This document shows positions 20,324-64,000 of a stretch of 64,000 nucleotides of DNA, one piece after another. A model generated the notes under the pieces. The model saw only the letters and a program-made list of their open reading frames with translations. It was not told the origin of the DNA and did no database searches. Source of the stretch: Dermacoccus nishinomiyaensis (GTDB lineage Bacteria > Actinomycetota > Actinomycetes > Actinomycetales > Dermatophilaceae); contig NZ_UFXX01000001.1 in NCBI RefSeq assembly GCF_900447535.1, positions 868,001 through 932,000 of the forward strand, written 5' to 3'. Made by a program: the position numbers and the translations under genes. Positions within the stretch are counted from its first letter, which is position 1, and the number at the start of each line of letters is the position of its first letter.

Positions 20324-20848
20324 TCAGCCCGCCGTCCCAGGGCGAGCGGTGGTGAGGCTCGCGCCGCCGGGCAGGAACGAGGTCCACGCTCCGGTGGTCT
20401 CGAGCACGGCAGCCGAGGCCGGCACGAATCCGCGCGTGACGACATCGATGTCCGCGCCCTCGCCGGCACACAGGTCATGGGCAAGCTGCGGCAAACCCGG
20501 CGCGTGGCCGACGACGATCGCGCTCGTCGCCTCGGGCGCCGTCGCGTCGAGTTCGTGGACGACGGCCAGCAGCGCCTGCGTGTCGGCTTCGTAGACGGCG
20601 GGCTCCATCGTGATGATGACGCCATGGCCCGTCTCGTCCTGGATGGCGGCCCACGTCTCGCGGGTGCGCAGCGCCGGCGAGCACACGACGACATCGCCGA
20701 GCCGCCCCTCGTTCTTGAGCCACCGGCCGACGGCGCGGGCCTCGCTCACGCCACCGTCACTGAGGTGGCGCGCTTCGTCACCGTCAGGGCCGGCCGGTTC
20801 GGCGGTGGCGTGACGAAGGAGTACGAGACGTCGGGTGGTTTCACTCAC
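20324..20848 (-). CDS. SixA-type histidine phosphatase family protein
   Basis: This 174-residue phosphatase has the RHG signature LLRHATAEP near the N-terminus, with the second catalytic His in VVGHAPGLPQ. The short length and DEARHLSDGG follow the SixA pattern. SixA proteins dephosphorylate phosphohistidine on phosphotransfer proteins; many actinobacterial homologues have no known target. It starts at a GTG. Confidence 0.88.
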   Translation of the reverse strand: MSETTRRLVLLRHATAEPAGPDGDEARHLSDGGVSEARAVGRWLKNEGRLGDVVVCSPALRTRETWAAIQDETGHGVIITMEPAVYEADTQALLAVVHELDATAPEATSAIVVGHAPGLPQLAHDLCAGEGADIDVVTRGFVPASAAVLETTGAWTSFLPGGASLTTARPGTAG

Positions 20849-60919: not shown

Positions 60920-60958
60920 GGCAGCCCATCGTTTCTACCCCAAGGCTCGGCGTCGTAT

Positions 60959-60981
60959 CAAAACGTTCGTTTGAGCTACGT
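60959..60981 (+). repeat. TTGAGCTAC repeat, half copy A
   Basis: The block around AAAACGTTCGTTTGAGCTAC (60959-60979) matches the right half of the longer repeats at 62404 and 63776, in the same orientation. The left half is missing. Confidence 0.6.
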
Positions 60982-61236
60982 CGCGGTGGGTGTGCGTAGC
61001 TCGTCAGGTGCTGCTGCCCCGGAGGGGTGTGACGTGTTCAGGCGCGCAGCGTCGTCGCCCGACGACCGTGCCCCGCAAAGGCTGCGCCTAGGCAAGCGGC
61101 GCGGACAGTGTGCTGGAACGTGCGTATACGGCGGGACTACCGTTGTGACGGCGACGGACATGGCGCTACGCAGCTTCACACGTTTCGCTTGGCCAGGGCG
61201 CCGCAAGAATCTCACGCCCGATGACACGAAGGAAAC

Positions 61237-62340
61237 ATGCTGGTGAGCACTCTTTCCACCTCAGACGCCCATCTCGACTCGGGCCGTGATGGACGCCAAG
61301 GCCCGAGTCGTAGCGTGACCATCGTGGGGGTAGGCCTGACCCTGGTAATCGTTGTGATCGGGCTGGCGTGGGCCAAGTGGATCCCGTATGACGACAAAGC
61401 TCACGCCCTCGCGAAATCGGGTGCGTGGAGTGGCAAGGCCATCTTCGGCGAGGCCGGCCACCCCGGTGACGCGCCAAGCTGGCATGGAGCCCTCGATTTC
61501 ACCCGTGCCTACGTCAAAGCCGTGTGGAAGGCTGCGCTCGTCGCGATCTTGGTGGCCTCAGCACTCGAAGCATTCATCCCGAAACGGCTCCTGTTGAACG
61601 CCATGAACCGCCGCAGCTCATGGGGCCAAGGCCTCAGTGGCGGGCTACTCGCCCTGCCGAGCATGATGTGTACCTGCTGTACCGCGCCGGTAGCAATCGG
61701 TTTGCGTCGCCGCGGTGCACCCGCGGGTGCGGTGATGGCGTACTGGCTCGCTAACCCGCTACTCAACCCCGCTGTCATGCTTTTCCTCGGTCTGACGATG
61801 TCCTGGCAAGTGGTCTCCACCCGTGCCGTCGTCGGCGTCGTCGTCGTCCTGGGTGCCGCCTTCATTGCTCAACGTCAAGCACGCGAGGTCGATGCCGACG
61901 AACTCATCGACGTCGACCACGACCCGCAGGGCGTCGCTGGCATGCCGTGGCGCTTCGCTAAAGCCCTCACGCGTTATGTCGCCATCGTTGTGCCTGAGTA
62001 CCTGATCCTCGTCGCACTGACCGGTTTGTTCTCCGGGTGGCTGTCCGACTTCACCCACCTAGGGAACGGGTCTGGCCTTCTGGCCTTGCTCCTCGTCGGT
62101 GTGGTCGGCGCCCTGCTCGTCATCCCCACCGGTGGGGAGATTCCCGTCGTCGCCGGTTTGAGTGCCGCCGGCGCGAGTCTTGGTGTTGCAGGGGTTCTGC
62201 TCATCACCTTGCCGGCGCTCAGCATCCCGTCGCTGGTCATGGTGGCACGCAGCTTCGGCACTCGGACCACCGTGAGCGTCATCGCTTGGGTCATCGCCGG
62301 GGGGCTGTTGTCAGCCGCTTTGCTCACCGCCCTCACCTGA
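61237..62340 (+). CDS. UPF0718/DUF318 family permease
   Basis: This 367-residue membrane protein has 8-10 hydrophobic helices. Characteristic blocks are SGGLLALPSMMCTCCTAPVAIGLRRRGAP (in part), YWLANPLLNPAVMLF and a second half-repeat with LLVIPTGGEIPVVAGLSAAGA. The Cys cluster CTCC in the first block is typical of this permease family, sometimes linked to arsenic or other metal(loid)s. The ATG has AAGGA upstream. It is bracketed by copies A and B of the TTGAGC repeat, and is not clearly in an operon. Confidence 0.88.
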   Translation: MLVSTLSTSDAHLDSGRDGRQGPSRSVTIVGVGLTLVIVVIGLAWAKWIPYDDKAHALAKSGAWSGKAIFGEAGHPGDAPSWHGALDFTRAYVKAVWKAALVAILVASALEAFIPKRLLLNAMNRRSSWGQGLSGGLLALPSMMCTCCTAPVAIGLRRRGAPAGAVMAYWLANPLLNPAVMLFLGLTMSWQVVSTRAVVGVVVVLGAAFIAQRQAREVDADELIDVDHDPQGVAGMPWRFAKALTRYVAIVVPEYLILVALTGLFSGWLSDFTHLGNGSGLLALLLVGVVGALLVIPTGGEIPVVAGLSAAGASLGVAGVLLITLPALSIPSLVMVARSFGTRTTVSVIAWVIAGGLLSAALLTALT

Positions 62341-62403
62341 GGGCCGCAGGCGGGGTGTAGCAGCCAGGGACGGGATCACTGAGATCAGGGATGCCGATGC
62401 GAA

Positions 62404-62463
62404 AACGGTGGGTTGAGCCACGAGGTCGACCCGATGGTGCAAAAACCTTCGTTTGAGCCACAC
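62404..62463 (+). repeat. TTGAGC repeat, full copy B
   Basis: The 60-bp unit holds two TTGAGCCAC blocks 40 nt apart (62413 and 62453), with CGATGGTGCA between them. It aligns without gaps to copy C at 63776-63835, at roughly three quarters identity. It lies between the permease and the first GNAT gene. Confidence 0.7.
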
Positions 62464-62612
62464 GTTCTGCGTGGCGAGCAACGCGGCGCTCCACCGGTCG
62501 AGCCGCTGACGTGGCTGCTCGGCGGTGAGGTGGGTGAGGCCGATGCCATGGTAGTTGGGCAGCCAGTTCTCCACGACGGGGTCGGCCTGGGCCGCGGTGA
62601 GAGGATCGCTCT

Positions 62613-63161
62613 ATGCCCACTCAGCCCTCATGGCCGCTTCGCACTGAGCGCCTAGCGCTGCGCCGCTACCGCTCCGACGACGTGGGATGGATGGCGTCCC
62701 TTTACGCTCGCCCCGATGTCGCGCGCTTCCTTCTCGAAGACCCCTGGACGCCCCAGCAGGCGCAGGAGAACCTGACCAAACGCATGACGAAGAACGGTCT
62801 CGAGGGGCCATCTGGTGCGCTGTCGCTCACTATCGACAAGGGCGAGCAGAGCATTGGCGACGTCAGCGTGTGGTTCACCGACCAGCCCCACCACGTCGCA
62901 GAGATCGGATGGGTGCTCGACCCCAGCCACGGTGGCCACGGGTATGCCCGCGAGGCCGTTCGCGCGGTCATCCGCTTTGCCTTCGATGAGTACGCCCTGC
63001 ACCGTCTCGTTGCGCAGATGGATGCCCGAAATGAGGCATCGGCGCGTCTGGCGGCGTCAGTGGGAATGAGGCAAGAGGCCCATCACCTGCAGGACTGCTG
63101 GAGCAAGGGCGAATGGACTGACACTCTCATCTTTGCGCTGCTCTCTACAGATCCGCGCTGA
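62613..63161 (+). CDS. GNAT family N-acetyltransferase (RimJ/RimL type)
   Basis: This 182-residue enzyme begins MPTQPSWPLRTERLALRRY. It shows the RimJ/L pattern: strand RLALRRYRSDDVGWMASL, EIGWVLDPSHGGHGYAREAV for acetyl-CoA binding and HRLVAQMDARNEASARLAASVGM. It is likely to acetylate a small amine or protein N-terminus; substrate unknown. GAGAGGA stands upstream of the ATG. Confidence 0.9.
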   Translation: MPTQPSWPLRTERLALRRYRSDDVGWMASLYARPDVARFLLEDPWTPQQAQENLTKRMTKNGLEGPSGALSLTIDKGEQSIGDVSVWFTDQPHHVAEIGWVLDPSHGGHGYAREAVRAVIRFAFDEYALHRLVAQMDARNEASARLAASVGMRQEAHHLQDCWSKGEWTDTLIFALLSTDPR

Positions 63162-63287
63162 CTCACCGCGTGATGGCGGGCCAAGAGCCAGTGGGGAGCG
63201 TAGAGCAGAGTCCGTCGTTTCAGCTGCGCCAGGAACATCCGTCGCTGGGCCCCTGCGACGTCACAGTGATGGGCGTAGCGTCGAGTC

Positions 63288-63788
63288 ATGGCAAGCGTTC
63301 GCCCTGCTCGCGTGGATGACGGGCCGCGTCTGGCCGAGATCGACCACGCTTGCTGGTCGCCGATGACCGACCCGGGGAGCCACTGGAGCCCGGGTCGCCC
63401 CTTCTTCGGAGTGCCGACAGGAACGCTCGTCGACGAAGTTCTGGTCGCTGCTGAAGGTGATGAAGTGCTGGGGTTCATCAAGATTCGACGAGAACCTAGT
63501 GAGTTCGGCCAGTGGTATGTGGGTGGGCTCGGTGTGGCACCTATCGCCCGCCGTCAAGGCCTAGCGCGGAAGCTCATACACGCTGCACTGACAGCAGTTG
63601 AGGCCAGGGGTGATGACAGCGTATGGCTCAGGGTGCTCTCATCCAACGTGGGAGCTGTTGCGCTCTATTCGGCGCTCGGGTTCGCCGAGGTGGCTCGGTT
63701 CGCCGACGCATTTGAAGATCGCCCGGGGGTGGATGACTTGCGACTGTCGGCGCAGCTGCCTCTCGCAGGCGCACGAACGGCGGGTTGA
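63288..63788 (+). CDS. GNAT family N-acetyltransferase
   Basis: This 166-residue enzyme begins MASVRPARVDDGPRLAEID. The acetyl-CoA motif GLGVAPIARRQGLARKLIHAAL and VGAVALYSALGFAEVARF are typical of RimI-like GNATs. It is 126 nt after the previous GNAT gene, and its stop codon (TGA of GGGTTGAGC) lies inside repeat copy C. Confidence 0.9.
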   Translation: MASVRPARVDDGPRLAEIDHACWSPMTDPGSHWSPGRPFFGVPTGTLVDEVLVAAEGDEVLGFIKIRREPSEFGQWYVGGLGVAPIARRQGLARKLIHAALTAVEARGDDSVWLRVLSSNVGAVALYSALGFAEVARFADAFEDRPGVDDLRLSAQLPLAGARTAG

Positions 63789-63835
63789 GCTACCGGACCG
63801 CTGCGATGGTGCAGAGCCTTTCGTTTGAGCTACAC
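63776..63835 (+). repeat. TTGAGC repeat, full copy C
   Basis: The same 60-bp layout as copy B: TTGAGC blocks at 63785 and 63825 (40 nt apart) with CGATGGTGCA between. Stop codons of both flanking genes fall inside it: the GNAT stop on the plus strand and the LysE-like stop on the minus strand. Confidence 0.7.
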
Positions 63836-64000
63836 CTGTCGGACGGCTTCGATGATGATGACGCAGGCAAGAACGGCGTAGACCGTGGCCGCCAGGTAGT
63901 TCAACGCCGCGCTAGCTCGCGGACTGCTGGTGAATCGCTCATGAAAAGTGCCCGCGAGAGCACCGATGGTGCCGTAGAGCACGAACTCGGTGCACACGTT
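63830..64000 (-). CDS. LysE-like membrane transporter, C-terminal end (partial)
   Basis: The last 56 residues of a minus-strand gene that continues beyond the window. Two hydrophobic stretches, TEFVLYGTIGALAG and NYLAATVYAVLACVIIIEAV, are separated by HERFTSSPRASAA, as at the end of LysE/RhtB-type exporters. The stop TAG (63830-63832) lies in repeat copy C. The family call is tentative because only the end is visible. Confidence 0.6.
   Translation of the reverse strand, partial: NVCTEFVLYGTIGALAGTFHERFTSSPRASAALNYLAATVYAVLACVIIIEAVRQV

Follow-up and report, generated by a model that had tools for sequence, protein, structure and literature searches.

The right-hand end of a 64,000-nt stretch of the Dermacoccus nishinomiyaensis genome (contig NZ_UFXX01000001.1; hereafter the window) carries a train of small accessory genes separated by copies of a repeat that contains the motif TTGAGC. 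The genome comprises 3.10 Mb in two contigs, and the window runs from C1:868001 (its position 1) to C1:932000. The left boundary of the array is site A, a single 24-bp dyad (60956-60979, + strand), at whose centre (60967) a match to Dermacoccus abyssi ends. It is followed by a permease gene (module 1, 61237-62340, +; Pfam ArsP_1, PF03773), the double site B (62398-62461, +; dyads at 62398-62421 and 62438-62461), a GNAT acetyltransferase gene (module 2, 62613-63161, +; Pfam PF13302), a degenerate site (63204-63227, +), a second acetyltransferase gene, GNAT2 (module 3, 63288-63788, +; Pfam PF00583), and the double site C (63770-63833, +), whose two dyads lie 40 bp apart, the second at 63810-63833. 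The window closes with the 3' part of a gene for a LysE-type translocator (module 4, 63830-64000, - strand; PF01810), which runs on to C1:932453, and the array continues beyond it with a site at C1:932547, a methyltransferase gene and a palindromic element of about 110 bp at C1:933274. All five sites of this cluster (cluster 1) are in + orientation, the palindromic element not being counted; the permease and both GNAT genes point in the same direction as the sites, and no transposase gene was seen inside the cluster.

The original prediction recognized here a permease module, a module of two acetyltransferases and a LysE module; the first and last of these stand, while the two GNAT genes constitute two modules, since the degenerate site lies between them. 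The 58 bp around this degenerate site are 95% identical to C1:1706713-1706656 (- strand). The stop codons of flanking genes, which had been placed inside the repeat, do lie within site C (GNAT2 TGA at 63786-63788; LysE at 63830-63832, - strand) but not within site B, upstream of which the permease gene stops at 62340, nor within site A. The description of the repeat itself proved accurate: the TTGAGCYAC blocks start at 60971, 62413, 62453, 63785 and 63825, on the + strand throughout, the two pairs (62413/62453 and 63785/63825) are spaced by exactly 40 nt, and the gap-free alignment of repeats B (62404-62463) and C (63776-63835) shows 77% identity over 60 nt.

The dyad site and its distribution

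The 9-mer TTGAGCYAC by itself is only mildly enriched in the window, where one further exact copy occurs at 20715 and where 21 copies with at most one mismatch are found against 13.0 expected (SD 3.5), a count of 21 being reached by 1 of 100 shuffles. The full pair pattern is far more specific, occurring four times in the genome and not at all when reversed as a control. The exact sequence CGTTTGAGCYAC occurs 11 times in the genome, each time inside one of three clusters, at C1 929.0-932.6 kb (cluster 1), 1077.9-1088.7 kb (cluster 2) and 1702.7-1706.8 kb (cluster 3). With one mismatch allowed, it gives 24 genome matches versus 30 for the reversed control, so that the sequence is informative only in its exact form or when extended. 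A train of one-gene modules with co-oriented sites is present in cluster 1, while clusters 2 and 3 hold sites in both orientations.

The core of all copies is an imperfect 24-bp dyad with the consensus GCANAANCCNTTCGTTTGAGCYAC, derived from 33 sites, of which 16 are from this genome, 8 from D. abyssi MT1.1, 3 each from the plasmid of D. nishinomiyaensis M25 and from Kocuria atrinae, and one each from plasmids of D. abyssi, Kocuria rhizophila and Gordonia. The symmetry is rough, with a centre that is mostly TT and less often GT, and individual sites diverge from the consensus pattern at up to 6 of the 24 bases. Conservation falls to background within 4 bases of the final C of the dyad, although the conservation seen in the logo is partly built in because its sites were picked by a search pattern. 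In addition to single sites, a double form pairs two dyads at a spacing of about 40 bp; it comprises repeats B and C and a further seven sites, one of which, on D. abyssi contig 21, has a degenerate first dyad. In the third form, a dyad stands at one end or at each end of a palindromic element of roughly 110-140 bp; this genome has such elements at C1:933274 (about 110 bp), at C1:1077240 and, in partial form, near C1:1892.7 kb, D. abyssi has three and the M25 plasmid one.

The sites are nearly confined to Dermacoccus and Kocuria replicons within the samples searched. When up to two mismatches were allowed, a sample of 149 genomes from the family gave 4 with the pattern. Two of these (G019 and G148) lie outside Dermacoccus and have a single two-mismatch match each; at their loci the site model R1 gave one match at E 0.06 (L067) and none (L064). 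A sample of the order yielded the pattern in 2 of 396 genomes, both Dermacoccus, and in 1 of 109 genera. The scan of a species-level collection, for which an exact match was required and the source genome left out, returned K. atrinae, three contigs of D. abyssi and a lone match in an Anaerolineales assembly, which was taken as chance, as this assembly contains one match with two and one with six mismatches. No stretch with the exact pattern was found among viral contigs. The four matches of a shorter pattern in K. atrinae (at most two mismatches) are all on one contig. Plasmid records with sites comprise D. abyssi CP043032, D. nishinomiyaensis CP008890 (M25), K. rhizophila CP124834 and Gordonia terrae CP096586 (L156), the last with one site in the 6 kb read. 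The repeat is hence not unique to this locus; its uniqueness was one of two findings by which the original prediction could have been refuted.

Probable exchange of modules between loci

The other such finding, an invariant gene order, is contradicted in D. abyssi, the one other species compared between the same flanks, by the orthologous locus L114. Its left flank is 89.5% identical up to window position 60967 (C1:928967), inside site A, and its right flank is 95.4% identical from C1:933274, the terminal palindrome. The conserved flanks enclose 4.3 kb here and 2.2 kb in D. abyssi, and blastn matches between the enclosed segments are found at the double sites only, with GNAT genes present in both species. 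Of site A, D. abyssi retains the left half, and an element of the IS30 insertion sequence (IS) family occupies the site's centre, with TT on either side.

Some modules recur elsewhere with their ends at sites, which supports the earlier suggestion that modules are joined or exchanged at a common site. The LysE module is found together with GNAT2 and site C on D. abyssi contig 34 (97.2% identity, the match starting 49 nt past the TTT of the degenerate site) and also in K. atrinae (94.6%), where the match starts within the double site preceding LysE and the neighbouring DNA differs from that found here. Each match runs into the following site and stops there 9-12 nt beyond the first T of its TTTGAGC. 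A 201-bp LysE fragment on D. abyssi contig 21 starts where site C ends. The D. abyssi plasmid matches the GNAT2 tail and site C at 158 of 163 bases, the match ending with the site.

A comparison of all array loci, restricted to alignments of at least 100 bp and 80% identity at E 1e-10, gave 43 alignments with 86 ends, of which 22 are no more than 15 nt away from a site. Rotation of the site positions gave a mean of 1.3 and a maximum of 10 such ends, and none of 2000 trials reached 22. An end was scored if it was near a site in either partner, ends common to several pairs were scored repeatedly, matches to IS elements were included, and the pair L030-L031 was left out because the two are overlapping stretches of one genome.

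Candidate recombinases

The absence of a recombinase from the window, as originally noted, is upheld by the genome-wide Pfam matches, 8 to PF00589 and 2 to PF00239, all of which are located elsewhere. A serine recombinase gene at C1:1075.4-1076.0 kb is separated from a site by about 230 bp; closely related genes are present at C1:1891 kb, on the M25 plasmid and on D. abyssi contig 21. Whole or fragmentary genes for serine recombinases accompany cluster 2, K. atrinae contig 79, D. abyssi contig 21, the M25 plasmid and, as fragments, the K. rhizophila plasmid. Junctions at which differing partners join at GGGGTACACCC were seen at L030 8131-8151, L115 6273, and L157 28621-28637 and 35177; three of these four places adjoin a serine recombinase gene, and GGGGTACACCC is perhaps the own crossover site of this enzyme.

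Among the tyrosine recombinases, two genes are presumed to encode XerC and XerD. A third (L058) adjoins a gene that we take to encode the main sigma factor and has matches below 60% identity in 269 plasmid records; no sites were found in the 16 kb around it, nor in 6 kb surrounding its relative in D. abyssi.

A probable cassette system and its alternatives

On the basis of the repeated sites, the layout of one site per module, the match breakpoints at sites and the differing content between conserved flanks, the TTGAGC repeats probably serve as recombination sites in a gene-cassette system that has a site type of its own. A module would typically consist of one accessory gene and one site, and reciprocal recombination inside the dyad of about 24 bp would join modules or swap them. 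The outcome would be module trains, their sites co-oriented, whose composition varies from one species or plasmid to another and which move between genera (Dermacoccus and Kocuria). Such exchange would involve a dedicated site-specific recombinase, which would act on the dyad in trans, with excised, circular modules as intermediates. A small serine recombinase would be slightly favoured as this enzyme because the dyad has a two-base centre, a tyrosine recombinase being the next candidate.

Several observations weigh against a cassette system of this kind. The LysE and methyltransferase genes point opposite to the direction of the sites. The alignment ends are not independent, as the same LysE gene, site C and site tails appear in several pairs, and the likeness among sites partly carries alignments to the site ends; moreover, 64 of the 86 ends lie away from sites, for reasons that include GGGGTACACCC junctions, divergence, IS elements and the limits of the stretches compared. 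Clusters 1 and 3 yielded no linked recombinase, and the search beyond 64 kb suggested by the original prediction came up empty near cluster 1. With tblastn, no serine recombinase was detected in the cluster 1 and cluster 3 stretches, the same being true of the examined stretches of D. abyssi contigs 1, 34, 2 and 3, and no recombinase common to all array replicons was found. The conserved block that includes the Dermacoccus serine recombinase ends at GGGGTACACCC and not at TTTGAGC, and the enzyme of the Kocuria replicons is distant, with about 32% identity to that of Dermacoccus. Neither an excised circle nor live recombination was seen.

The points concerning the recombinases also bear on a narrower form of the proposal, in which a small serine recombinase of the invertase/resolvase type acts on the dyad, with co-oriented sites leading to deletion or integration and inverted pairs to inversion. 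The imperfect dyad around a two-base centre agrees with such an enzyme, as do the genes and gene fragments on several Dermacoccus and Kocuria array replicons and the inverted flanks on the M25 plasmid, and the site GTAGCTCGAACGAAGGTTTTTGCAAC is assumed to resemble the crossover sites of Hin and Gin. The likeness to these invertible systems lies in the imperfect dyad with its two-base centre, while many tandem modules, and not one invertible segment, are found here. In view of the tblastn results, the divergence of the two enzymes and the occurrence of relatives on at least 5000 plasmids, this form of the proposal is rather unlikely. The linked resolvase in particular was weakened as the candidate enzyme because the conserved block and the surrounding junctions lie at GGGGTACACCC, away from the sites.

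The arrays may alternatively be viewed as the remnant of an integron, namely a cluster of attC sites lacking an integron-integrase (CALIN), the dyads being degenerate attC sites moved by an IntI that was lost or is encoded elsewhere. The double sites follow the box order of a short attC (R''-5-L''-loop-L'-5-R'), the double site of cluster 3 folds as an attC-like hairpin on the bottom strand, and MAFFT places the core on the left-simple-site box of five class 1 attC sites. A plasmid search with the double site returned a 24-base match in 4 of 23 records (two of Escherichia coli and two of Serratia; E about 7), and in the one record read (L155, 2501-2524, GCAGAACCCTTCGTTCGAGC) the Dermacoccus site matches 22 of 24 bases of what we take to be the left simple site of a class 1 integron attC, just before aac(6')-Ib4. 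Favoured initially for the box order and the one good fold, membership of the integrons was not upheld after further tests. The R' box GTTRRRY is not matched, its fourth base being T in 31 and C in 2 of the 33 sites; none of 19 pairs changed on both sides among 9 similar sequences; and hairpin z-scores of 28 sites did not exceed those at 60 randomly chosen positions (p 0.07 at 64 nt, and 0.58 and 0.77 for longer segments). In the attC-like pairing test, which included 32 of the 33 sites, the 9 double sites did not exceed 500 random GTT positions (p 0.36) and the 23 single sites scored below controls; this test is weak, given that five known attC sites score 12.5-15.5 against 90th, 95th and 99th percentiles of 12.5, 12.5 and 14 for random positions, so that two of the five reach only the 90-95% level of controls. 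No IntI was found above the cut-off of TIGR02249 (265 bits) in three genomes, the best match scoring 81.9 bits, while a CALIN is by definition devoid of a linked IntI. A remnant integron is regarded as unlikely. The likeness to integrons and CALINs lies in the train of small accessory genes with one site per gene, the co-oriented sites of cluster 1, and a content of GNAT, VOC and defence genes that varies between species; beyond the lack of an IntI above the cut-off in the three genomes, the deviating R' box and a fold not above control in the weak pairing test, the differences are a 24-bp dyad that is kept letter by letter and both gene orientations within one train. The locus behaves as a cassette array, yet falls outside the definition of an integron.

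A dif-module array was likewise considered. The likely dif of this genome (C1:445117, one mismatch to the dif motif) matches the site at 9 of 24 positions, compared with a mean of 9.9 for shuffled sequences, 1855 of 2000 of which were as good, and the dif-module reading is unsupported because this likeness is no better than shuffled. The likely dif of D. abyssi (G009:C2:11861) is less than 10 kb from sites on the same contig (L117 2653-4181), which is not so here. In common with the pdif modules of Acinetobacter plasmids, on which XerC and XerD act, short dyad sites bound accessory modules and the enzyme lies outside the module; the sites here differ in having no likeness to the host dif, and the host group is Actinomycetota. 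IS elements enter or adjoin the sites in both systems, the IS1202 family, which targets pdif according to PMC10132070, being replaced here by the IS30 family.

The dyads may also be transposase-binding repeats at transposon ends, with the arrays arising from nested or one-ended insertions. Tandem direct binding sites, as present in the double form, are typical of TnsB/TniA-type ends, a TniA/TniB-like pair is encoded on D. abyssi contig 31, and the M25 plasmid carries a unit of about 250 bp with outward sites. An extra transposase site near each end is described in PMC10132070. Cluster 1, on the other hand, has five sites in one orientation, one per module, with no inverted pair and no visible transposase gene, which makes transposon ends quite improbable. 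Homologous recombination between repeats that had spread by chance could in principle shuffle modules, as copies of 24-64 bp might pair. Nevertheless, 24 bp is short for homologous exchange, the sites differ from the consensus pattern by up to 6 of 24 bases and the LysE module is found in another genus beside other DNA, rendering this explanation very improbable.

Gene content and associated elements

The modules between sites are mostly single-gene. Cluster 2 contains genes for an ornithine cyclodeaminase and a nitroreductase, an IS481-type insertion and a 154-aa gene, for which an SMI1-like label was dropped as Pfam assigns no family; further on, an AbiEi/AbiEii pair lies between IS30-type copies (L030 17483-19416). 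Cluster 3 includes a gene of the Asp/Glu racemase family. The genes among the D. abyssi sites encode GNAT, alpha/beta hydrolase, glyoxalase and NIPSNAP proteins as well as the Shedu defence protein SduA (L115 3486-4757), and the region of sites on the M25 plasmid holds GNAT, VOC, GyrI-like, NUDIX and methyltransferase genes. The array-bearing contig 79 of K. atrinae encodes Gabija GajA and GajB (L134 2402-6833, GajB being distributed over two reading frames), along with further genes that we read as plasmid-like.

IS30-type elements were observed in or beside dyads or site-like sequence at L114 5355-6563, L030 17193, L031 2683, L157 22728 and L161 8790-10009. The D. abyssi copy in L114 encodes HTH_38 and rve domains, and elements of this type may preferentially target the dyad site. 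On the M25 plasmid (L153 10603-11101; NZ_CP008890.1 28350-28848), inverted flanks of 151 bp enclose the unit of about 250 bp, with the sites facing outward, an arrangement such as an inversion or hybrid event would leave. The TniA/TniB-like transposition genes of D. abyssi contig 31 are accompanied by a resolvase gene (L162 2727-7313) and by a mercuric-reductase-like gene, labelled by eye alone.

Conclusions

The site type of the Dermacoccus arrays is unlike those of both well-known cassette systems, integrons and dif modules, and no recognized description of such arrays in Dermacoccus or Kocuria was found in the searches made of an open-licence library. It is tentatively proposed that they could represent a bacterial gene-cassette system of a third kind, distinct from integrons and dif modules, which would be based on a 24-bp dyad site, reside on plasmids and chromosomes of Dermacoccus and Kocuria, and pass accessory and defence genes (Shedu and AbiE) between actinobacterial genera.

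The defined 24-bp site would provide a handle for finding the enzyme. In Actinobacteria, integrons are reported to be extremely rare, with no complete integron, one In0 and a few CALINs recorded in PMC9024848. A cassette system with a different site would offer these bacteria an equivalent route for the collection of single genes, perhaps including genes for defence against phages.

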